A stretch of DNA of 20,822 nt from Desulfobacterales bacterium (GTDB lineage Bacteria > Desulfobacterota > Desulfobacteria > Desulfobacterales > JAHEIW01), in the NCBI GenBank assembly GCA_030145015.1, contig JAQYWI010000095.1, positions 1 through 20,822 on the forward strand, in the 5' to 3' direction. The position numbers and the translations under genes were made by a program. Within the stretch, counting starts at the first letter, position 1; each line of letters begins with the position of its first letter. The notes beneath the pieces were generated by a model that worked only from the letters and a program-made list of their open reading frames with translations, ran no database searches and was not told the DNA's origin. This document shows, piece by piece, positions 3,808 to 15,601 of this stretch.

Positions 3808-3861
3808 ATCTCCGCAAACCCAAATTCCATTGTTTTTTATATTTTATTCATATTAATTTCT

Positions 3862-3990
3862 GGTTTCAGGTTTCGGGTGTCAGGTGTCAGTGTTCAGCAT
3901 TCGTATATCAGAGTTGTCAGCTCTTCGGATTCTGACACCTGACACCTGACACCTGAACACTGAAACCTTAATTTGTGACACCTGAAACCT
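3862..3990. repeat. Inverted repeat of GTGTCAGG / CCTGACAC words upstream of ccoI
   Basis: Left arm at about 3862-3897 (GGTTTCAGG, then GGTGTCAGGTGTCAG and GTTCAG) and right arm at about 3931-3967 (three CTGACACC-type units, then CTGAACACTGAAACC) are reverse complements over most of their length, separated by about 33 bases. A further TGACACCTGAAACCT follows at 3976-3990. It ends 16 bases before the ccoI start. It is not a CRISPR array, since units are contiguous and without spacers. Confidence 0.8.
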
Positions 3991-4006: not shown

Positions 4007-6616
4007 ATGAATAAAAGCTCCAATCACCAGCCTGTGAACCCACGGACATGCGACCTGTGTGGTCTGCCGTTACGTTATGGAACCGTTAATGCGGTGTTTT
4101 CAGGAGATACATATGCTTTTTGCTGCAACGGCTGCCGACAGGTGTTTACGATTTTAATGGAGTCCACGGATTCGCCGAATCCTGAAACTTTTCGTGAAAC
4201 CGACCTGTTCAGACAATGCCGGGCCAGGGGCATCATTCCCGGCTCCGAAGAAGAACTAACCGCAGCGGGCAGCACCCATGCGGAGGCCGCACCGATGCCT
4301 TCAGCGGCTGCACGGGACAACGTTCTGACGCTCAAGCTGAGGGTCGGCAACATGTGGTGTTCGGCCTGCGCCTGGATCATCGATGAATCCTTGAAAAAAA
4401 CCCCGGGCGTCGTCGATTCGACCTGTAATTTCTCCACGGACCGGCTCCAGGTGGTCTACGATCCGGTCAAAGTCACCTCCCATCAGATCATCGCAACCAT
4501 CGGCAAACTCGGTTACCGGGCGACGACGCCCGGTGATTCTGAAAAAACAACCGAACGCCGTAGAGAATTTGTTCGATTTGCCGTTTCTGCTTTTTTGACC
4601 ATGAACGTCATGATGTTATCCTTTGCCCTGTATACCGGGTTTTTTACGGATCTTTCTCCTGAAAATGCGGCTAAAATTTCCTGGCCCATGTTCGTCATGG
4701 CCACCACCGTTTTGTTCTATGGCGGATATGATTTTTATAAAAAAGCCTGGGCCGGATTACGGAATGCCGCTTTCAGCATGGAAACCTTGATCATCATCGG
4801 TGCTTTGAGTGCTTATTTTTTCAGCACCTATAATCTTTTTGCGAAAAGCATCCATCTATACTACGACACCGCTTCCATGCTGATCACGCTGGTGCTCTTA
4901 GGTAAAACCCTGGAGCGCCGCGCCAAAGGACAAGTTTTAGAAGATTTGGAAAATTTCTTTGCGCTGATGCCCACCAAAGTCAGAATCTGCAGTGGCGATT
5001 TCCCCGGGGGCCGCTATGTGGCCATCGAACAGCTTGCACCCGGCGATATCTTTCGGGTAAGCGAAACTGATATTATACCGGCTGACGGCCATGTCCTATC
5101 CGGCAACGGCACCGTGGAAGAATCTTCACTGACCGGCGAGCCCTTGCCCATCACCAAAAAGCCGGGTGACTTTATCAGAAGCGGTGCCCGGGTTCAGCAG
5201 GGCAGTTTTAAAGTCAAGGCCGCAAAGGTCGGAAACGACTCCACTCTGGGGCAGATGATGCAGATCATCGAAAAAACGCTGCTGACCAAAATGCCCATCG
5301 AGGGCAAAACCGATGTTATTTTGCAGTGGTTCGTTCCCGTCATTCTGCTGCTGGCGACAGCCACCGGCATGGCGTGCCGGTTCATGGGATTGTCGCTGGA
5401 AACATCGATCCTGCGCGCTGTAACCGTCATGGTCATCTCCTGCCCCTGCGCTCTGGGAGTTGCCATCCCCCTGGCCCGGGTGGCCGGTATATCCATTGCT
5501 GGCCAAAAGGGCATCCTGGTGCGCAATTTTATCGCATTTGAAATGGCTGGCCGGATTACCGCATTTGTTTTTGACAAAACCGGAACCATCACTCACGGCA
5601 ACTGGACCCTGCAAGAAATTGTGGCGTTCGCGCCCTGTGATGAAAACCAGGGGTTTAAATTGGCGGCGGGACTGGAGCAAAACTCAGATCATTTTATCGG
5701 ACGGGAAATTCTGCGGCAGGCCCAAAAACGAAATATTGAGCCCGCAACCGTAAACGAAATTCAAACGCAAGAAAATGGTGTTATCGGCCGCTTTAAGGGT
5801 GACATCCTAAAAATCGGATCGGCAGACTTTCTGAAAGACACGACTGTAAAATTCAATAAACACCCTGGGTCAACGACCACCCGCACAGCGGGTGGCTTGG
5901 ATTTTACCGCCATCGGCGGGAAAAGACAGGGGCGCGAAGTGCCCCAATCGTTGCGGGTGGAACCGGGTGCGAAGCACCCGGTTTGGAAAACCCAATCCGA
6001 TGATTTACAACAGGGATCCACATATTCGTATGTATATCTGAGCATCGGAGATCGGCCCGCCGCTGTGTTTGTTTTCGGAGACAGCATTCGAAACGGTGCC
6101 AGGGCAACCGTTGAAAAATTGCTTCAGCGGGGATTACGGCTGGCATTGGTTTCCGGGGATGGAATTGAAACCACCCGGGCCATCGCAAAGGATGTCGGAA
6201 TCCAGGATGCCTACGGCGGTCAGATGCCCAACGATAAAGTCGCCATCGTCAAAACGTTGCAGGATCAAAACCATTCGGTGGCCATGGTGGGCGACGGCAT
6301 CAATGACGCCCCGGCACTCGTTCAGGCCGACCTCTCCCTGGCCGTCCACTCCGGGGCGAATCTAGGGGAAGAGGTGGCGGATGTGACCCTGATGCGTGCA
6401 GAACCCGAACAACTCATCGATTTTTTAAGATTTTCCGGCGCTGTTAATAAAAAAATCAGCCAGAATCTGATCTTCACATTTGCGTATAATGTGATCAGCA
6501 TCCCCATGGCCATGAGCGGCCTGCTGACTCCGCTGGTGGCCGTATCCGCCATGCTTCTAAGCAGCATCAGCGTTATTGGAAACACGTTGATGTTGGTACG
6601 CAAGCACTCTGCCTAG
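4007..6616 (+). CDS. ccoI: Copper-translocating P1B-type ATPase for cbb3 assembly (CcoI/FixI), with in-frame repeat insertion
   Basis: P-type ATPase that delivers copper for the CuB site of the cbb3 oxidase. The FixI/CcoI type is shown by an N-terminal cysteine cluster (C15-x2-C18, C39 C40 and C43 in CCNGC) before a heavy-metal domain with MWCSAC (C118, C121). The core is complete: TGE at 376-378, membrane CPC at 479-481, phosphorylation site D523 in DKTGT, and hinge GDGIND at 762-767. The N-domain ATP-site motif reads SDHFIG rather than the common S-x-HP form; H562 is kept, the proline is not. Residues about 621-664 are not family sequence: they are encoded by a multi-hairpin repeat also found at 12918-13178. 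Without them the length is about 825, normal for the family. No clear Shine-Dalgarno precedes ATG 4007. Confidence 0.93.
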   Translation: MNKSSNHQPVNPRTCDLCGLPLRYGTVNAVFSGDTYAFCCNGCRQVFTILMESTDSPNPETFRETDLFRQCRARGIIPGSEEELTAAGSTHAEAAPMPSAAARDNVLTLKLRVGNMWCSACAWIIDESLKKTPGVVDSTCNFSTDRLQVVYDPVKVTSHQIIATIGKLGYRATTPGDSEKTTERRREFVRFAVSAFLTMNVMMLSFALYTGFFTDLSPENAAKISWPMFVMATTVLFYGGYDFYKKAWAGLRNAAFSMETLIIIGALSAYFFSTYNLFAKSIHLYYDTASMLITLVLLGKTLERRAKGQVLEDLENFFALMPTKVRICSGDFPGGRYVAIEQLAPGDIFRVSETDIIPADGHVLSGNGTVEESSLTGEPLPITKKPGDFIRSGARVQQGSFKVKAAKVGNDSTLGQMMQIIEKTLLTKMPIEGKTDVILQWFVPVILLLATATGMACRFMGLSLETSILRAVTVMVISCPCALGVAIPLARVAGISIAGQKGILVRNFIAFEMAGRITAFVFDKTGTITHGNWTLQEIVAFAPCDENQGFKLAAGLEQNSDHFIGREILRQAQKRNIEPATVNEIQTQENGVIGRFKGDILKIGSADFLKDTTVKFNKHPGSTTTRTAGGLDFTAIGGKRQGREVPQSLRVEPGAKHPVWKTQSDDLQQGSTYSYVYLSIGDRPAAVFVFGDSIRNGARATVEKLLQRGLRLALVSGDGIETTRAIAKDVGIQDAYGGQMPNDKVAIVKTLQDQNHSVAMVGDGINDAPALVQADLSLAVHSGANLGEEVADVTLMRAEPEQLIDFLRFSGAVNKKISQNLIFTFAYNVISIPMAMSGLLTPLVAVSAMLLSSISVIGNTLMLVRKHSA
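5867..5997. repeat. Multi-hairpin repeat element, short copy, inserted in frame within ccoI
   Basis: 131 bases matching the reverse complement of 12918-13178. Bases 5868-5971 differ from the other copy at about six positions, and 5974-5997 matches the other end at 23 of 24. It folds into four consecutive hairpins with three-base loops: 5877-5895 (8-bp stem, loop ACA), 5902-5924 (10-bp stem with one mismatch, loop ATC), 5929-5945 (7-bp stem, loop GAA) and 5961-5983 (perfect 10-bp stem, loop GAA). The frame is open through all of it and encodes about 44 residues between the ATP-binding region and the GDSIRNGA region of the ATPase. No target-site duplication is obvious. Confidence 0.88.
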
Positions 6617-6960: not shown

Positions 6961-7320
6961 TCTATATATGTAGATGTGTTGTAAGGGTCGGCGCTGATAC
7001 TTCGACAATATGAGGACTGAAGCCTTGCCGCAAAAAACATCAAATGCTCGAAAAATGCAGATATTAATAGCATTTCGACGTTTAGCGATGATTTTTGAGA
7101 TTCATGAAATTAAACAATGATAAGCTGTTCATTTGAAAATCAGCTTTAAAGGAAAATGGCGCTGCCAGAAATTTATACAGCCTAACGTCAAAAAATCGTT
7201 AAATTTTTCCATTATTACGGTTAAATTTATAGGAAAATCAGAAACTGGCAACTTAAGCCGATATCTGTAAGACGAGGACTTATAAGGAATCCATAACCAT
7301 AATTTATAATGGGAGGAAAA

Positions 7321-9378
7321 ATGCCTAAAAAATCAATCGCCCTTCACCAGCACCTGGCGGCCGTAAAAGACGGCAAGCTGCGATTTGAAAATGCGTTCCA
7401 GGGGGTGACCCGTATGATTCTGGAAAGCGAAATTGAGAAGGTGGTGGTGAACGGTAAGACGACCTATGATTTTAGAATCTTCCGCAACGGTTCCAAACAC
7501 ATCATCGGCATGTATAATGAGATCAACAGTTTCGTTTCCTACGTGAAAGATGCGGCCGAGAGCGGTTCTTCCAAGGAAATGGCCTTTGTCCTGGTTGGCG
7601 AGCCGGGCAATGGCAAAACGTTTTTTGTGGAATTTCTGTCCGGCAAATATCGCAACTTTCTGGCCCAGGAAAAAAACCGCAAGTTTACGTTTAAATTCCT
7701 GAATCTGGACAAGACCGGTAATTACGGCAAAATTTCTACAGTTGAGTCGCAAACTTATGAGGATCCCATGATCCTGGCGATGAATTTGTTTGATGATTCG
7801 GATGAAAGTAAGAAATTTTTGGCCAAACAGATCGGCTTTTCCGATAAGGATATTGAAAAACTGTATGAAAATTACCGGCCTTTAGGCGCCTGCAGCGGCT
7901 ATATCTGGAATGATATCCGCAATCATTGTGACGGAAATGTTGATGAAATGTTGAAATTCGTTGAGATCACACCCGTGCCCTTGACGGAAAGTTTGGGCAC
8001 GGTGACCGGAAAATATCCGGCCAAAGATAAAATCACCTCCTCTGCCGTAGATCTGCTGGGCGAAGAGTCCATCCAGCGCTTACTACATATCACTGACACC
8101 AACAATCCGTACCGTTTTGATTTACGCCGCGGCGCATTGGCCCGCGTCGCCGGTGGCGGGATTCATTTCAGCGACGAGATATTCAAAAACAAAAAGGATC
8201 TGGTCCAGGTTTATCTAGGTGTCATTCAAAACCGCAACATCGAGATTGACGGCTTCAAGTGGCCCATTGATACGTTGATTGTGGCCACCAGCAACAACTC
8301 CGAATTTCACCGCTTTCTTTCAGAAAAAGAAGAAGCGCCCATCGTCGACCGCTGCCGGATCTGCTACGTGTCCCACAACACCAACTACAAACTCCAAAAA
8401 GAGCTGACCGGCTATGCCATCGGCAGTGAAACCCGCACCACGCTGACCCGCGAAGATCTGCACCAGGATCCCAATCTGAATTACTCCGCTTCAGTTGCTT
8501 CCGTTTTAAGCCGCCTGCCGCGTTCCGAAAAACTGACTCCGGTGGAAACCATGAAACTCTCCGCCGGAGAGGTCGCCGGCGAAAAAAGCATTAAAACATT
8601 GGCAGAAGTTATCGACACCCTCAACCAGGATCCGGAGATCATCAACCGCTTCGGCCAGAAGGGCCTGGGGCAGCGAAATCTGGGTAGAGCCATTCAGCTG
8701 ATGATTGAAAGCTCTGAAACCAATGAAGGCCGGTGCATGTTCGCCTATGACATCTTCAAGGCGCTGGAACGTATTATTCTGGATTATGTTACGGAAGCCA
8801 ATGATCGGGCCAAATACCTTGATGATCTCAAAACCGGCAAAGGATTGTATCGCGAACGAATTATGACCGAGATGTTCAATGCCTATATGGATGAACCCTT
8901 CGCCATTCGCAAGGACGTCATGAACTATGTGAACATGATCATCGGAATCGATGCCGAAAACTTAGGCCCTGATAAGATGTGGAAATACAAAGACCCGCAA
9001 AACAAGGAACTCAAGGCCTTAAAGATCGATGAACGCTATATCAACAGCGTGGAAGAACGCCTGGGCCTTAAAACCGAAGAACAGCGTGAGTCCTTTCGAA
9101 CATCGATCCGTAAAATCTACGGCCAGAAGATTTCGGTCGATCCGGATTACGATTTTATGGACAACCTGGAGCTGGTAAAAGCCGTCACCGACGTCCGCCT
9201 CAAATCCGATATTGCCGGTGCCGGCAGTCTGATCGGCGCGCTGGCCAACCGTACCAATGAGGAAAACCAGAAACTCTACGATCGCATGATCGAAACCATG
9301 CTCAATAAACTGGGCTACTGCCGCACCTGCGCACAAAAGACGATCGAGTACTTCTGCACGCAAGAAGACGAAAAATAA
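7321..9378 (+). CDS. prkA: PrkA-type AAA+ serine protein kinase (YeaG-like), first paralogue
   Basis: Cytoplasmic PrkA-family protein, 685 residues, close to the usual length. The AAA+ part shows Walker A GEPGNGKT (93-100), a Walker B-like GIHFSDEIF (D285, E286), sensor-1-like VATSNNSEF (321-329) and a probable arginine finger R344 in VDRCRI. The C-terminal half is the helical region to which serine kinase activity is assigned in this family. It ends in a CRTC..C cluster also echoed in the second paralogue. In E. coli the homologue YeaG works with YeaH in sustained nitrogen starvation, and Bacillus PrkA acts in sporulation. ATG 7321 is preferred because GGGAGG at 7311-7316 sits just before it; an in-frame ATG at 7309 overlaps that site. 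It heads the prkA-yeaH-spoVR-prkA2 cluster and probably responds to nutrient or energy stress. Confidence 0.95.
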   Translation: MPKKSIALHQHLAAVKDGKLRFENAFQGVTRMILESEIEKVVVNGKTTYDFRIFRNGSKHIIGMYNEINSFVSYVKDAAESGSSKEMAFVLVGEPGNGKTFFVEFLSGKYRNFLAQEKNRKFTFKFLNLDKTGNYGKISTVESQTYEDPMILAMNLFDDSDESKKFLAKQIGFSDKDIEKLYENYRPLGACSGYIWNDIRNHCDGNVDEMLKFVEITPVPLTESLGTVTGKYPAKDKITSSAVDLLGEESIQRLLHITDTNNPYRFDLRRGALARVAGGGIHFSDEIFKNKKDLVQVYLGVIQNRNIEIDGFKWPIDTLIVATSNNSEFHRFLSEKEEAPIVDRCRICYVSHNTNYKLQKELTGYAIGSETRTTLTREDLHQDPNLNYSASVASVLSRLPRSEKLTPVETMKLSAGEVAGEKSIKTLAEVIDTLNQDPEIINRFGQKGLGQRNLGRAIQLMIESSETNEGRCMFAYDIFKALERIILDYVTEANDRAKYLDDLKTGKGLYRERIMTEMFNAYMDEPFAIRKDVMNYVNMIIGIDAENLGPDKMWKYKDPQNKELKALKIDERYINSVEERLGLKTEEQRESFRTSIRKIYGQKISVDPDYDFMDNLELVKAVTDVRLKSDIAGAGSLIGALANRTNEENQKLYDRMIETMLNKLGYCRTCAQKTIEYFCTQEDEK

Positions 9379-9439
9379 AAGGGTCGCCCGCTTAGCCGGC
9401 CGTTTTCAGGTGGGCACAGAGGCCTTTCTAATGACTGTT

Positions 9440-9506
9440 TTGTTCATTTGAATTTTGAAAATTCGGATTTGTTTCGAATTTCGTTATTCGAATTTCGGAT
9501 TTCAAA
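9440..9506. repeat. AT-rich dispersed repeat with TTCGAATTTCG words, upstream of yeaH
   Basis: Within the 165-base gap between prkA and yeaH, this stretch carries repeated words GTTTCGAATTTCG, TATTCGAATTTCGGATTT and GAATTTTGAAAATTCGG. The same words, in both orientations, occur at 11002-11166 upstream of spoVR. The yeaH start codon follows about 38 bases later without a visible Shine-Dalgarno sequence. Confidence 0.6.
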
Positions 9507-9543
9507 TCTATGTGTAGTTCATTCAAAAACTGTGATTTAAATT

Positions 9544-10926
9544 ATGGATCCAAAACTCCTCGAACTTTATGAACATCTGAAAAAAAAAGGCCTGACGCCC
9601 GAACAGGAGCGTAAAATTCTGGCCGAGCTGGAAGCGGCCGATGCCCATGACCTTCCTGAAACCGCCGCAGCTGGATCCTCCAAATCATTCCGCAAGTTCC
9701 AGAATATCTACAACTATAACGACCTGTCTTTCTTGCAGGGAATAACCGCCATGCAAAGTACCCACAACACCAGTCTGAAATCCATCGATGAACTGCTGGA
9801 AAGGGACAAGCAACGCGAAGAGGACGGCTTTCCGCGTAAAATAAACGTCGGCCGTATAATCAAACCGGGCAAAGCCGGCAAGGACAAAATCGTCGTGGTT
9901 CCGTCAACCGTGGAAGAAAAATTTATGCATGACCCCTCCTTTCAGACCTCCGAAGAAGAACCCTACGGGGGCACCGGTGATGGGGAAGAAGGTGATGTAA
10001 TCGGTGAACAGCCGGTCCATGCCCCGGATGGCGGCGACGGAACCGGTCCGGGACAGGGAGAAGGCGCCCAGCACGAAATGGAATCCAACGCCTATGATCT
10101 GGGCCGGATTTTGACCGAAAAATTTCAACTGCCGAACCTCAAAGACAAAGGCAAAAAACGGTCCCTCACCCGCTATACATATGACCTCACCGACCGCAAC
10201 CGCGGGTTCGGCCAGCTGCTGGATAAAAAAGCCACCCTGAAGAAAATTGTCGAAACCAATATTCATCTTGGAAACCTGCCCGATATCAACGCCATCGATC
10301 CAGCACAATTTCTGGTTTCGCCAACCGATATGGTCTACCGGGTGCTGTCCCGTGAAAAGGACTATGAATCCCAGGCAATGGTTTTTTTTCTGCGGGATTA
10401 TTCCGGCTCGATGGCCGGCAGATCAACGGAACTGGTCGTTGCTCAACATGTGATGATATACAGCTGGCTGTTATATCAATATGCCATGCAGGTGGAAACG
10501 CGTTTTGTGCTGCATGACACCGAAGCCTCGGAGGTAGAGGACTTTTACAAGTACTACAATTCGGCGGTGGCCGGCGGCACCCAGGTGTCTTCTGCATACC
10601 GCCTGGTCAACGAAATTGTCGAAAAAGAAAACCTGGCCCGGGACTTTAATATTTACATCTTTCACGGCACCGACGGCGATGATTGGGACACCGACGGCAA
10701 GGAATCCATTCCCCAATTGGAAAAAATGTTGAGTTATGCCAATCGGATTGGAATTTCCATCGCCGAACATACTCAGGAAGCCACCCATAACACCGAAGTC
10801 GAAAAATATTTAAAAAAGTCCGGGATGCTGACGGAAAAGCCGGATTTACTCAGACTGGACGTCATGCAGGAAAGTGCCGACGAACCCAGGCTGATTCAAG
10901 GGATAAAGCACCTTATATCTGAATAA
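9544..10926 (+). CDS. yeaH: YeaH/YhbH family protein (DUF444) with von Willebrand A domain
   Basis: Soluble DUF444 protein of 460 residues. The C-terminal half is a von Willebrand A-like domain with a complete metal-binding (MIDAS) site: DYSGS (D285, S287, S289), T346 in AGGTQVSSA, and FHGTDGDDWDTDG (about 374-385) giving the acidic residues. This tail resembles E. coli YeaH (QASDGDNWADD). Residues about 138-180 form a glycine- and acid-rich disordered linker typical of the family. The N-terminus (LLELYEHLKKKGLTPEQERK) is helical and lacks the IDRR..NRQRF opening of the enterobacterial form, so this is a divergent branch. AAA+ proteins and MIDAS proteins often act in pairs, and PrkA is the obvious partner here. 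ATG 9544 has no Shine-Dalgarno sequence; it was chosen because the helical N-terminus is plausible and nothing better exists. Confidence 0.93.
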   Translation: MDPKLLELYEHLKKKGLTPEQERKILAELEAADAHDLPETAAAGSSKSFRKFQNIYNYNDLSFLQGITAMQSTHNTSLKSIDELLERDKQREEDGFPRKINVGRIIKPGKAGKDKIVVVPSTVEEKFMHDPSFQTSEEEPYGGTGDGEEGDVIGEQPVHAPDGGDGTGPGQGEGAQHEMESNAYDLGRILTEKFQLPNLKDKGKKRSLTRYTYDLTDRNRGFGQLLDKKATLKKIVETNIHLGNLPDINAIDPAQFLVSPTDMVYRVLSREKDYESQAMVFFLRDYSGSMAGRSTELVVAQHVMIYSWLLYQYAMQVETRFVLHDTEASEVEDFYKYYNSAVAGGTQVSSAYRLVNEIVEKENLARDFNIYIFHGTDGDDWDTDGKESIPQLEKMLSYANRIGISIAEHTQEATHNTEVEKYLKKSGMLTEKPDLLRLDVMQESADEPRLIQGIKHLISE

Positions 10927-11001
10927 ACAAAACCTGATTTTGTTAACTGATCATTCGCTAAATATATAAGGAAACTCGAAGCACGCCTGATTTTATAAAA
11001 T

Positions 11002-11166
11002 TGGTCGAAATCCGAAACAAATCCCAAATTCGAATGTTCAAATTTTCTAAACGATGATTACAAACCTTACAAAGTCAAAAATTGAGATAAAGCCTTTTTG
11101 TTTAGAATTTTGGTCATTTTGATATTCAAATTTGCTTAGAGTTTCGATATTCGAATTTCGAATTTT
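11002..11166. repeat. AT-rich inverted repeat in the yeaH-spoVR gap
   Basis: The 306-base gap holds no coding frame. Left arm at about 11003-11047 (GTCGAAATCCGAAACAAATC..ATTCGAATGTTCAAATTT) and right arm at about 11115-11162 (TTTTGATATTCAAATTTG..GTTTCGATATTCGAATTTCG) are imperfect reverse complements, able to form a long weak hairpin. Both are related to the stretch at 9440-9506. The region from 11163 to the spoVR start is very AT-rich and shows no ribosome binding site. Confidence 0.65.
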
Positions 11167-11232
11167 ACGTGGCCTTTAAAAAAAATTTGAATTAAAAAAT
11201 TAATCCAGCGTTTTTTAAATGATTTCCAAATT

Positions 11233-12918
11233 ATGGAATTAATCAATCAACATACCAAAAAGATAATGGAAGGGTGCAAAGAGCGGGCCCGGGAAGCCGG
11301 GCTGCAATTTCAGGATGAAACCCTGGAGTACATTGTCAGCAACCGTGACCTGCTCGAGCTAACGCCCAAACTGATGATTCCGACGCTCTATGATTACTGG
11401 GTCCACGACGTCGAAGTCCTCAAAGAAAAGGGCCGCTACGAGCTCTACCCCAACAATCCCTATGAGACAGTGATCAACACACGGCCGGCCATCTCATACT
11501 ACAATGACAACAATCCGGATTGGATGAATGTCATGATCTTTTACCACGTGCTGGCGCACATCGATTTTTTCCAGAACAATTTGTATTTCCGGCACACCTG
11601 GGATTATGACTTCACCGGCCGGGCGCTTTCGGATAAGCGTATGATCTCAAAAATCAGATCGGAGAAAGGCCGCTGGCTCGATTATGTGATCGAGTTTGCC
11701 CGCAGTAGCGACAATCTGGTGGGATACCACAACGAGCTTGCCGTGCTTAATCGTCCGCCGGTGACGAAAAAATCCAGGATGCTGGACTTTTATTTTGACG
11801 AATTTCTACAATCAATAAAAAAAATAAATGTAAATGAATATATAAAAGAAATCGAAAGATACAATGACTGCATCAAGACCAGTAAAGACCATGGTGAAAA
11901 AGCCTTTTTTGCGGAGGTGTTCAGAAAATACCCGGAATTTGATGCCATCTATAAAAAAAGCCTTAAGGAAAAAACAGATCAAAAACTGGATTTGATGCAA
12001 TATATATTGGAGCACTCCGAGTTTTTAAATAAGGAAGATAATCGCTGGATGAAACCGGTTATCGAAGTGGTTCGCAAGACCTCTTTGTTTTTCCAGCCCC
12101 AGATTCGAACCAAGATCATGAATGAGGGCTGGGCCAGCTACTGGCACGAAAATCTCTTCCTGCAGGATGACCGTATCGAAGGGCACGAGGTCGATTTTGC
12201 GCGCACCCATGCCTTTGTGACGGCATTGCCCCGGGTGGGATCGAACCCATATGCATTGGGGATGCGGATTTTCCATTACATCGAGGAACTGGCAGATAAA
12301 GGCAAGTATTCAATTGCGTTTAAGCGGCTGCTGGATGCCAGGGAAAGAGAAAAATTTGATGCCAACACCGGAATTGGCAAAGCGTTTGTCTATAAAATTC
12401 GCGAAAACCTGAACGATTTTATATTTATCAACACATTTGTGGATCAGGATTTTATCAATCGCAATAACCTGTTTGTGGCCGGCAAGCGGCTCAACCAGAG
12501 CAAAGGCGTCTGGGAGTATTATGTCAAAAGCCGCAAAGCTGGGGATTATCGCCAGATGCTCTTTGACTCGCTTTACCATCCGCCCCACATCGCCATTGAT
12601 CCGCAAAAATCCAAGAATGGCGATCTTTATTTGAATCACCATTTTGAGGGCAAACCGCTGATCAGTGAATTTATTACCAATACCATGATGGGAATTGAGT
12701 ATATGTGGGGAGCTCCCGTCAAGCTGGAGACCAGCGAAGTCAAAAAAGTCGAACCCCCGAAAATTCAAATCCCTATTCCCGGGATGGCAATGCCGCGGGA
12801 GGATGACGGCAGGCAAATGGAAATAAAGTGGCAGCGGGTGTTATACACCATGAAAGACCGCAAGCTTTCCAAAGTGACGTTAACGGACTCGGATGTTCAC
12901 CAAACTGCAGCGAAATAG
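11233..12918 (+). CDS. spoVR: SpoVR family protein (YcgB-like)
   Basis: Cytoplasmic protein of 561 residues, somewhat longer than the roughly 470-510 usual for the family. Diagnostic stretches are MIFYHVLAHIDFFQNNLYF (102-120), aligning with the histidine-containing region of E. coli YcgB (MAHACYGHNSFFKNNYLF), KIMNEGWASYWHENL (294-308), the family's best-conserved segment, and SNPYALGMRIFHYI (337-350). SpoVR was named for a role in Bacillus spore cortex formation, and YcgB is co-regulated with YeaG/YeaH; the biochemical function is unknown. It is the third gene of the prkA cluster. No Shine-Dalgarno precedes ATG 11233. An in-frame ATG at 11266 is an alternative, also without a site. The stop codon TAG shares its last base with the multi-hairpin repeat element. 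Confidence 0.93.
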   Translation: MELINQHTKKIMEGCKERAREAGLQFQDETLEYIVSNRDLLELTPKLMIPTLYDYWVHDVEVLKEKGRYELYPNNPYETVINTRPAISYYNDNNPDWMNVMIFYHVLAHIDFFQNNLYFRHTWDYDFTGRALSDKRMISKIRSEKGRWLDYVIEFARSSDNLVGYHNELAVLNRPPVTKKSRMLDFYFDEFLQSIKKINVNEYIKEIERYNDCIKTSKDHGEKAFFAEVFRKYPEFDAIYKKSLKEKTDQKLDLMQYILEHSEFLNKEDNRWMKPVIEVVRKTSLFFQPQIRTKIMNEGWASYWHENLFLQDDRIEGHEVDFARTHAFVTALPRVGSNPYALGMRIFHYIEELADKGKYSIAFKRLLDAREREKFDANTGIGKAFVYKIRENLNDFIFINTFVDQDFINRNNLFVAGKRLNQSKGVWEYYVKSRKAGDYRQMLFDSLYHPPHIAIDPQKSKNGDLYLNHHFEGKPLISEFITNTMMGIEYMWGAPVKLETSEVKKVEPPKIQIPIPGMAMPREDDGRQMEIKWQRVLYTMKDRKLSKVTLTDSDVHQTAAK

Positions 12919-13178
12919 ATTGGGTTTTCCAAACCGGGTGGTTGTTTGTATACCGATCGGGCGCTACGCACCCGATCACAAACACAATGATTGCGAGCTA
13001 ACGTTCGCTTGTTTTTCCGTCCTACGGCCGGAAAATCAAACATCCCTCTCACAGAGCGGTATGGTCATTGATACGCACCCGGTTTCACCCGCAACGATTA
13101 GGGCACTTCGCGCCCCTGTCTTTTACCGCCTATGGCGGTAAAATCCAAGCCACCCGCTATGCGGGTGGTCGTTGACTC
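12918..13178. repeat. Multi-hairpin repeat element, full-length copy, between spoVR and the second prkA gene
   Basis: 261 bases made almost wholly of hairpins, most with three-base loops: 12955-12977 (10-bp stem, one mismatch, loop TAC), 12993-13008 (6-bp stem, loop TAAC), 13013-13035 (10-bp stem, one mismatch, loop TAC), 13101-13116 (loop TTC), 13121-13143 (perfect 10-bp stem, loop TAT) and 13150-13168 (perfect 8-bp stem, loop TAT). A long-range stem can pair 12931-12940 with 13077-13086 and enclose the central modules. It is in opposite orientation to the copy at 5867-5997, which lacks the central 135 or so bases. It fills the whole gap from the spoVR stop codon to the ribosome binding site of the next gene (GGAG at 13179-13182). 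Confidence 0.88.
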
Positions 13179-13189
13179 GGAGACATCTC

Positions 13190-15601
13190 ATGGGCAAAGT
13201 GAAAAAAGCCATCCGTGCTTTGAAAAAAGAAGAAAAGCGCACCAAAGAAGATGTGAGTGCTGAGAATAATATTCAAAAAGCCATGCTGAATCTTAACCAG
13301 AACATGAGTGCAAAGGAACAGCGCACCTCGATTCCCTTTGCAGAGTTTCTTGACGAACTGGTTGTGAATCCGAAAAGCGTGATGCGCAATATTTTTCAGG
13401 TGTTTCACGATATGATGAAAGCCTATGTCGGCGAAGGTGTAGATGAATACCCCGATGATCCCGAGTCCATCCAATATGCCAATTACGATTGCAATAAGCT
13501 GTTTGTAGAGGGAACAGACAACCCGTTTTTTGCAGACCGTTTGTTCGCCAACCGGTTGGTTAAACTCGTCGAAGCCTTAAAACGCGGCACCCAGCAAAAT
13601 AAAATCTATATTTTTAAAGGACCCCCCGGCTGCGGTAAAAGTACTTTTTTAAACAATATGCTCACCAAGTTTGAGGAATATGCCAGTACCGATGCCGGTT
13701 TTCGATATGAGACCGTCTGGCGTTTTGATCGCAAGATATTCGGCCAGTTCAGAGATTATGAAGCCCATCCCATCCTCAAGCAGCTATCCAGCCTGCTGCA
13801 AGATTCCAACCCGGATCTGACGGATGCAACCGGCAACACGGGTTTGCTGAATTCATCTGCAAACTCTGAAGAACTGCTTGATGATTCCCACGCACCATAC
13901 ATGGCTGAAGACTATGTTGAAGTCCCCTGCCCGAGTCATGACAATCCCCTGCTGATGATTTCCAAGCATTATCGGCGGGAATTTTTCGATGATTTGTTTA
14001 AAAATGATAAATTTAAATGGCAGCTTTCCACCGAAAAAGAATTTGAGTGGGTATTCAAAGCCCAGCCGTGTACGATCTGCAGTTCTTTGTATGAAGCGCT
14101 GCTGGGCCGGTTGAAAAGCCCGCAGCGGGTATTTGAGATGCTGTATGCGCGGCCGTACCGCTTCAACCGGCGCCTGGGTGAAGGCATTAGCGTGTTTAAC
14201 CCCGGCGATCAGCCCTTAAAGCAAAATGTGATGAGCAATGTCATGCTTCAACGGCGGATCAATAATATGCTCAGGGACAGCAACCTGGTAAAATACATCT
14301 TTTCCCAGTATGCCAAGACCAATAATGGGATTTATGCCCTGATGGACATCAAATCGCATAATACCGAACGCTTAATTGAGTTGCACAATATCATCAGCGA
14401 AGGCGTTCATAAGGTGGAAGATATTGAAGAAAACGTCAATTCTCTGCTGCTGGCGGTGATGAACCCTGAAGATGAGAAGAACATCCAGGGTTTTCAATCC
14501 TTCCTGGACCGTGTGCAATACATCAAGATACCGTATGTTATGGATCTTTCAACCGAGGTGGAGATCTATCGCAATATTTTCGGCCGGCACATTGATGAAC
14601 GCTTCCTGCCAAGGGTTCTTCACAATTTTGCCAGAGTTATTATATCCACGCGCCTGAGCACCAAATCAGATGCCATGCTGGACTGGATTGATGATCCCGC
14701 GCGCTATCGTCTTTTTTGTGATGAAAACTTGCAGCTGCTTAAGATGGAAATCTACACCGGATATATTCCAAACTGGCTGTCGGAAAAAGACCGCAAGCGC
14801 CTCACCGCCAAGCGGCGGCGGAAAATTATTGCCGAATCTGAAAACGAAGGCGATAAAGGCATCTCCGGCCGTGATTCCATCAACATTTTCAATAGATTTT
14901 ACTCGACCTATACCAAGGAAGATAAGCTCATCAGAATGTCGGATCTGTGTAATTTTTTCACCAAAGCCCGCAAGGAAATCAAGGACCTGATACCCCAGGG
15001 GTTTTTGGATTCTCTTTTGCGCATGTATGATTACACGATTCTGCAGGAAGTTAAGGAGTCCCTCTACTATTACAACGAAGAGCAGATTTCCCGGGAAATT
15101 CAAAACTACCTGTTTGCGATTAATTTTGAAATCGACTCTGTCGAAACCTGCACCTACACCGGGGAAAAACTGGAAATTACCGAGGAATTTCTGGAGGGCA
15201 TTGAAGCTAAATTACTGGGGGCCAAGGCGGATCGAAATCAACGCAAAACCTTTCGGGAAGAGACCCAGAAAGAGTACACCACCAAAACACTTACCCAGGA
15301 AATCATGGTTGAAAATGTTCCAATTGCGGAAACAAAGATTTATCAATCCATGCACGATCGCTACGTGCACAACTTGAAGGAAAAAGTGCTGGATCCCTTT
15401 CTTGAAAACGAAAACTTTCGCCGCGCCATCAAAGATTACGATAAAGAGGATTTCAAGACCTACGACAAGCGGATCAGGGAAGATGTGACCTATCTGATCA
15501 ACAATTTGTGCAAAAAATGCAGATATACTGAACAGGGCGCCAAAGAAATATGCATTTACGTCATTGATAATGACCTGGCAAAGAAGTTTGCCGATGCTTA
15601 A
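13190..15601 (+). CDS. PrkA-type AAA+ protein, second divergent paralogue
   Basis: Protein of 803 residues with the PrkA layout: Walker A GPPGCGKS (144-151), a probable zinc site made of VPCPSH (C247, H250) and PCTIC (C294, C297), a Walker B region NGIYALMDIKSH (380-390), sensor-like LAVMNPEDE (421-429) and arginine finger R441 in LDRVQYIKIPYV. The last Walker B acid is D386 where PrkA proteins, including the neighbour at 7321, have E, so hydrolysis may be slower. It is about 120 residues longer than the first paralogue; the basic, charged N-terminus (KKAIRALKKEEKR) and an insert between Walker A and the zinc site account for part of this. Its C-terminal CKKC..C helix resembles the end of the first paralogue. 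ATG 13190 with GGAG seven bases upstream is preferred to the TTG at 13172. It probably forms a complex with, or counteracts, the first kinase. Confidence 0.88.
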   Translation: MGKVKKAIRALKKEEKRTKEDVSAENNIQKAMLNLNQNMSAKEQRTSIPFAEFLDELVVNPKSVMRNIFQVFHDMMKAYVGEGVDEYPDDPESIQYANYDCNKLFVEGTDNPFFADRLFANRLVKLVEALKRGTQQNKIYIFKGPPGCGKSTFLNNMLTKFEEYASTDAGFRYETVWRFDRKIFGQFRDYEAHPILKQLSSLLQDSNPDLTDATGNTGLLNSSANSEELLDDSHAPYMAEDYVEVPCPSHDNPLLMISKHYRREFFDDLFKNDKFKWQLSTEKEFEWVFKAQPCTICSSLYEALLGRLKSPQRVFEMLYARPYRFNRRLGEGISVFNPGDQPLKQNVMSNVMLQRRINNMLRDSNLVKYIFSQYAKTNNGIYALMDIKSHNTERLIELHNIISEGVHKVEDIEENVNSLLLAVMNPEDEKNIQGFQSFLDRVQYIKIPYVMDLSTEVEIYRNIFGRHIDERFLPRVLHNFARVIISTRLSTKSDAMLDWIDDPARYRLFCDENLQLLKMEIYTGYIPNWLSEKDRKRLTAKRRRKIIAESENEGDKGISGRDSINIFNRFYSTYTKEDKLIRMSDLCNFFTKARKEIKDLIPQGFLDSLLRMYDYTILQEVKESLYYYNEEQISREIQNYLFAINFEIDSVETCTYTGEKLEITEEFLEGIEAKLLGAKADRNQRKTFREETQKEYTTKTLTQEIMVENVPIAETKIYQSMHDRYVHNLKEKVLDPFLENENFRRAIKDYDKEDFKTYDKRIREDVTYLINNLCKKCRYTEQGAKEICIYVIDNDLAKKFADA

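Follow-up and report, generated by a model that had tools for sequence, protein, structure and literature searches.

The best-described palindromic repeats to survive as protein inserts are those of Rickettsia and Wolbachia. Rickettsia palindromic elements (RPEs) are described as dispersed palindromic repeats of ~100–150 nt that lie in frame in unrelated protein genes and encode a conserved peptide (PMC10969869, PMC3767692, PMC2996958). For RPE-1 to RPE-3, orthologues are reported to share the element at its site, and for some RPEs the question has been raised of an insertion hot spot or a common origin (PMC3767692). Coding palindromes are also named for Wolbachia and the archaeon Methanocaldococcus jannaschii (PMC2996958). 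The GTAG/CGTC REPs are described as 20–40 bp units, single, in dimers or in groups, with a tag tetranucleotide, and intragenic REPs as recurrent in uvr, rec and helicase genes, with free-living bacteria among the carriers (PMC3733652). Bacterial MITEs are given as gene-less, dispersed elements of a few hundred bases (PMC10969869), and PARCEL coding repeats as palindromic, protein-coding and arranged in tandem arrays (PMC2996958).

Here we describe a multi-hairpin repeat found in frame within ccoI in the window, the whole 20,822-nt stretch of Desulfobacterales DNA that was analysed. Our reading, to which we assign a probability of roughly 85%, is that a gene-less mobile multi-hairpin repeat has spread in Desulfobacterales-like genomes and survives in genes as translated in-frame inserts in variable linkers. 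The RPEs appear to be the nearest known kind, with the same way of life, and we claim neither kinship nor membership. Like the RPEs, the element is a dispersed palindromic repeat of about 100–150 nt that is inserted in frame in several unrelated proteins as one peptide; set against their published description, it differs in occurring in another phylum and in having several hairpins, a closing helix and nested copies. The Wolbachia and M. jannaschii coding palindromes, as described, are likewise in-frame inserts in assorted housekeeping genes. The first-pass annotation had named the RPEs as precedent, and this holds for the way the element works; the occurrence of the same peptide in ~20 other protein families strengthens the view of a palindrome living in proteins. 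We found no description of this element among the open-licence titles listed, which is weak evidence of absence.

Table 1 Features of the ccoI insert and its partner copy in the window
Feature	Coordinates	Strand	Evidence or remark
ccoI, copper-translocating P-type ATPase with insert	4007..6616	+	ORF of 869 aa; Pfam HMA, E1-E2_ATPase, Hydrolase
In-frame ccoI insert, 132 nt / 44 codons, GSTTTRTAGGLDFTAIGGKRQGREVPQSLRVEPGAKHPVWKTQS	5867..5998	+	Translation; absent in 111/121 aligned CcoI rows
Element core, TCAACG to CCCAA	5870..5995	+	126 nt in 13/15 subfamily copies; covariance model match
Helix B, 5871-5876 with 5948-5953, closing three hairpins	5871..5953	+	Fold; own versus swapped arms
Hairpin H4, three-base loop	5877..5895	+	Fold; own versus swapped arms (small margin)
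Hairpin H3, inner stem 5907-5919, three-base loop	5898..5928	+	Fold; own versus swapped arms
Hairpin H2, three-base loop	5929..5945	+	Fold; own versus swapped arms
Hairpin H1, three-base loop; nested unit sits here in partner copy	5960..5984	+	Fold; swap margin only 0.02
Intergenic compound copy, gap between spoVR and second prkA-like gene	12918..13178	-	Outer unit core match 13069-13176; second unit ~12940-13074

The ccoI ORF (4007–6616) has no stop through 5867–5998, so the in-frame palindromic insert of the first-pass annotation, all 44 codons of it, stands. The ~95% inverted match to a distant non-coding stretch that it had reported was recovered as two pieces: residues 5869–5976 of the DNA match the reverse complement of 13069–13176 (94% identity over 108 nt) and 5972–5997 that of 12918–12943 (96% over 26 nt). 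The match is split because the partner copy, 12918–13178, is compound, with a second unit of like layout nested within the loop of the outer unit's first hairpin; by eye, some copies in other genomes look compound in the same way. The first-pass annotation had named, as something that would refute it, a partner that is a decayed piece of ccoI. This is ruled out, as relatives with an insert-free ccoI contain dozens of copies of the repeat.

At the protein level, the whole Pfam Hydrolase profile (PF00702) is matched around the insert. The CcoI alignment to copper ATPase 3rfu comprises two blocks, query residues 190–610 and 658–865, and 3rfu has 7 residues where the window CcoI has residues 611–657. 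The insert site is placed between blocks of the cytoplasmic ATP-binding part, and we infer any finer placement; a CcoI structure model (mean pLDDT 53) was too poor for placing the insert.

The region 5860–6005 folds into four hairpins with three-base loops, as the first-pass annotation had it, plus a 6-bp helix that encloses three of the four. The fold energy is −76.4 kcal/mol versus a shuffle mean of −52.4 (z −6.3; 0/200 shuffles as low), and a covariance model of the repeat matches window 5863–6001 with 142 bits. For 67 copies and six helices, unlike arms were exchanged between copies in an alignment fitted to a 22-pair model that lacks the outer helix and H3. In every helix the mean own-stem length exceeded the largest of 200 arm-swap means (A 4.24/3.46, B 4.57/4.33, H2 5.60/4.95, H3 7.64/5.90), with slight margins for H4 (7.25/7.09) and H1 (7.88/7.86) because the arms of these two hardly vary. 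The helices are kept by matching changes, clearly so for four of the six (outer helix A, B, H2 and H3). In one subfamily the closing helix CAACG/CGTTG is changed to CACCG/CGGTG, and the outer helix occurs as GGGT/ACCC, GGTTG/CAACC, GTTTG/CAAAC and CTTGC/GCAAG; some copies mismatch, for example CACCG paired with CGTTG in two. As to the strand of the fold, the model pairs include 101 G-T versus 25 A-C, an excess that by our estimate comes mostly from one nearly invariant G-T pair, and the mean fold energies of the two strands are −59.4 and −61.9. A known structured RNA family was rejected as the identity of the element, with no Rfam family matched at gathering score.

The stretch 5867–5998 belongs to a dispersed repeat family of Desulfobacterales-like genomes. 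Searches by blastn with the window copy gave at least 42 matches in genome G001, at least 45 in G173, 28 in G187, 10 in G003, 9 in G253 and 7 in G002 (E limits 0.01 and 0.001, fragments counted, 40/47 candidates scored in G001 and 40/75 in G173). Within the order that includes G001, the repeat was matched in 30 of 291 genomes (E 1e-6, at most two candidates scored per genome), and in a phylum sample in 4 of 395, G001 itself among them (E 1e-10, stricter filters). Three phylum-sample genomes, G062, G611 and G664, hold a more distant version of the repeat (L238–L248, 51–76 bits). The three nearest named records are two uncultured Desulfobacterales and one deltaproteobacterium. The repeat had no match in E. 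coli genomes or phages, and 12 plasmid records matched in pieces of 22–33 bases only (best E 0.2); a phage, plasmid or E. coli repeat was rejected on these grounds. The examined loci, which are chosen best matches of some genomes and thus a subset of copies, contain 130 near-full copies, of which just 2 sit in an ORF that extends 50 codons to either side. One is the window ccoI and the other, L157, is unconvincing. A looser scan of 117 copies adds, by eye, L038 in a regulator-like ORF and L008 at an integrase-like C-terminus, and the remaining rows have the look of chance ORFs or of starts called too far upstream. Most copies in the loci read seem to be intergenic.

The ends of the repeat unit, GAGTCAACG / CAATC, carry no GTAG or CGTC tag; for the ccoI subfamily, 15 copies were picked by end motifs. 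Subfamily B, from G173 and G001, comprises 24 copies (L094, L031, L120 and 21 other loci) with a longer common left flank that starts TTATACC; most of these also have in common a right flank that ends near CTATAA. With this longer unit and its partly matching ends, subfamily B is MITE-like, the core being carried inside. The ccoI subfamily is without these flanks and differs from MITEs in that neither clear terminal inverted repeats nor a target duplication were evident by eye.

Could the repeat be REP-like, with a RAYT (Y1) transposase moving it? Intragenic REPs are likewise palindromes within coding genes, and are reported in uvr and rec genes too (PMC3733652). Y1 transposase genes are present in 8/8 genomes searched (54 matches); in the one-contig genome G187, 2/3 lie <5 kb from a copy (chance 0.02), and in G173 2/7 (contigs C147 and C263) lie 1.4 and 1.8 kb from one. 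Against this stand the other one-contig genomes, with 0/6 Y1 genes in G069 and 0/18 in G003 within 5 kb, and the 8 Y1 loci read of the 54 matches, none of which held a strong copy (best 14 bits). The repeat itself also departs from the 20–40 bp GTAG/CGTC hairpin, being a unit of ~130 nt with several hairpins and untagged ends. A transposase tied to the repeat was not found among the Y1 genes of 8 genomes, of which 8 loci were read and three one-contig genomes were assessed by distance. We consider movement by a RAYT unlikely and take the nearness of Y1 genes as a lead, not a link. Two Y1 genes on contig C1 of G187, near 35123 and 1452450, lie ~4 kb from a repeat copy.

Returning to the repeat as an inhabitant of genes, we aligned 121 CcoI rows, comprising the window's P0001, its database twin P0002 and 119 others (from the best 120 of 7,964 matches). 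The insert is present in P0001–P0010 and missing in the other 111, which differ in length by only 1–3 residues near the insert spot. The expectation of the first-pass annotation that these residues are absent elsewhere in CcoI was borne out, and a conserved CcoI segment of the same length is rejected as the identity of 5867–5998, since those 111 rows are without it.

The insert-bearing proteins are scattered on the CcoI tree. A quick tree was built from 40 rows selected from an earlier 85, with near-copies thinned, the insert cut out and P0140 scored as insert-bearing. On it the 8 insert-bearing rows need 7 changes, at least 5 of them forced by well supported branches, and a single clade of insert-bearing rows is rejected (lnL 544 lower, p-AU 9e-44); shuffled labels need 7.5 changes, and 201–202 of 500 shuffles were as low. 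The 85-row tree, which included three near-identical insert rows and counted P0140 as insert-free, gave 6 changes (4 forced) with the insert label clustered (0–1 of 500 shuffles as low). The insert variants do not follow the hosts: P0002 and P0003 carry different insert variants, yet their hosts are 93% alike, and P0003, P0005 and P0140 have a common variant (95.2–97.6%). By eye, the local flanks of P0004 resemble those of its insert-free sisters P0058 and P0064, which speaks against simple transfer of a ccoI piece. The CcoI rows are metagenome clusters, and for any single row chimeric assembly is possible; in G173 the contig ends just past the site in ccoI, which by eye reads as empty. From the scatter of insert-bearing rows at one aligned position, it follows that the insert was gained, lost or exchanged among copies there repeatedly. 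In this the CcoI insert departs from the RPEs whose orthologues share the element, and its scatter is new relative to known palindromic inserts. It bears on the question raised for RPEs, of an insertion hot spot or a common origin (PMC3767692).

A search with the insert peptide (residues 621–665 only, against proteins of about 478–1520 aa) found 44 proteins, namely 10 CcoI clusters and 34 others, which we grouped from Pfam content and source names into 20 unrelated families. These are a TPR-SPOR protein (two copies), histidine kinases, RhlB, a SagB-type enzyme, UvrA, an acyl-CoA synthetase, an HD-CE/ATPase protein, a DinG-like helicase, a TPR-glycosyltransferase, a CcoG-like protein, a ModF-like ABC protein, an MrfA-like helicase, UvrC, P0143, P0144, MscS, a GltD-like protein, P0148, P0149 and RecC; some of these names we presume from domain content. 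That the same repeat appears as nearly the same 44-residue peptide in some twenty unrelated proteins illustrates how selfish DNA can persist inside genes. Inserts were placed in their hosts by BLASTP. In UvrA, P0143 and P0144 the insert is terminal, possibly a mis-annotation. PARCEL repeats stand in tandem arrays, whereas here the inserts are single and interspersed, with two in one protein (P0122). In UvrC, relatives in 5/6 genomes searched are without the insert (the sixth had no UvrC match), and in the five aligned one conserved block runs into the next; the UvrC Pfam profile PF08459 is whole across the insert (407–612 over profile 1–159). RecC of relatives lacks the insert in 6/6 genomes, and its site is a variable linker (5 aligned). 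The hosts are repeatedly DNA repair proteins or helicases (UvrC, RecC, UvrA, UvrD-like, DinG-like and MrfA-like; P0142, P0150, P0127, P0159, P0131–P0133, P0141), and intragenic REPs in other bacteria are likewise reported in repair and helicase genes (PMC3733652).

The inserts are often more alike than the proteins that carry them, as in 28/28 CcoI pairs and 3/3 histidine-kinase pairs (for example, host 73–85%, insert 86–100%). In the histidine kinases P0123, P0125 and P0129 the hosts are 82–85% and the inserts 97.6–100% alike, which suggests that copies exchanged sequence or entered recently. The same figures could be taken to mean that selection favours the insert, in CcoI and in other proteins, as a functional module, a reading we hold to be very improbable given that the hosts are unrelated in function, most copies read lie outside genes, insert-free sister proteins are common, and in RhlB and MscS the inserts diverge at about the pace of their hosts. 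Two host families, RhlB (P0156) and the synthetase (P0153/P0154), have lost 16 residues in frame within the insert, which fits deletion between two CCCAATC repeats of the element, as read in the window sequence.

The reading of a mobile repeat tolerated in genes gains from the frame in which it is found. In 18 of 19 internal host families (our grouping) one reading frame of the element is used. Among the 15 subfamily copies this frame is open in 12, antisense R1 in 13, F2 in 9, F1 in 4 and R2 in 2. One frame is used although another is as often open; selection therefore seems to see the insert peptide, which, judging from this one-frame use, is probably translated. The binomial probability of 18/19 is 5e-9 with equal detection of all frames and 0.002 if the others are fourfold less detectable; at tenfold lower detection it is 0.10 and the bias is not significant. 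Four other frames were searched at lower sensitivity, 100 words being spread over 173 residues, and this gave 5 proteins: P0159 (UvrD-like, R1), with an internal insert, P0157, P0158 and P0160 (N-terminal) and P0161 (C-terminal). Out-of-frame copies would have escaped the peptide search, which covered predicted proteins only. The used-frame peptide is hydrophilic and nearly cysteine-free, and the R1 peptide has about two cysteines and is less hydrophilic. A preference among F0, F1 and F2 would point to the peptide because all three share one RNA, and the one-frame bias separates a peptide effect from an effect of stops. The subfamily copies, mostly outside genes, have no codon-position bias (25:22:21), so the open frame looks like a by-product rather than a selected coding unit; when all subfamilies are taken together, only 37 of 85 copies have the used frame open.

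Multi-hairpin elements skipped by ribosomes exist, and the strong fold of this one would suit an intron-like element or a ribosome bypass, by which the insert is removed before the protein is made or while it is being made and the protein is normal, but such removal is indifferent to frame or stops, which sits badly with one open frame in 18/19 internal host families, and with no Rfam family at gathering score the idea is far-fetched.

We return to a mobile repeat that is small, multi-hairpin and gene-less, with a core of 126 nt and an insert of 132 nt, and that would spread through Desulfobacterales-like genomes. The ccoI subfamily unit has a length that is a multiple of three and a frame on one strand that is usually stop-free, so that a copy landing in that frame would add ~44 mostly hydrophilic residues and the protein would not be broken. 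Selection would remove most other intragenic copies, the survivors being putatively translated and tolerated peptide inserts in variable linkers. This picture builds on the observed insert-free relatives, conserved flanks and frame bias, from which we infer translation, tolerance and removal. The probable use of the hairpins is in movement as single-stranded DNA or in replication slippage, hairpins and short end repeats together may allow exact loss, and exchange among copies may keep them alike. As for the exact, repeated presence and absence of the insert in CcoI, the element might, tentatively, enter and leave the same CcoI position exactly and repeatedly, by site-specific insertion or precise hairpin-driven excision, and exchange sequence with other copies. 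It would then act in working proteins as a mobile peptide module that is reversible, and DNA-repair enzymes would be among the hosts it recurs in. With a case from environmental anaerobes that is large and apparently independent, one can test how selfish DNA survives in genes.

Elsewhere in the window, positions 7309–15601 hold prkA, a DUF444 gene, spoVR and a second, longer prkA-like gene in one row. The space from spoVR to the second prkA is taken up by the compound repeat, which starts at the last base of the spoVR stop codon. A different inverted repeat, of TGACACCTGACACC-like units, lies directly before ccoI (3855–3974), and A+T-rich direct and inverted repeats of the TTCGAATTTCG type lie on both sides of the DUF444 gene (9425–9502 and 11006–11165).
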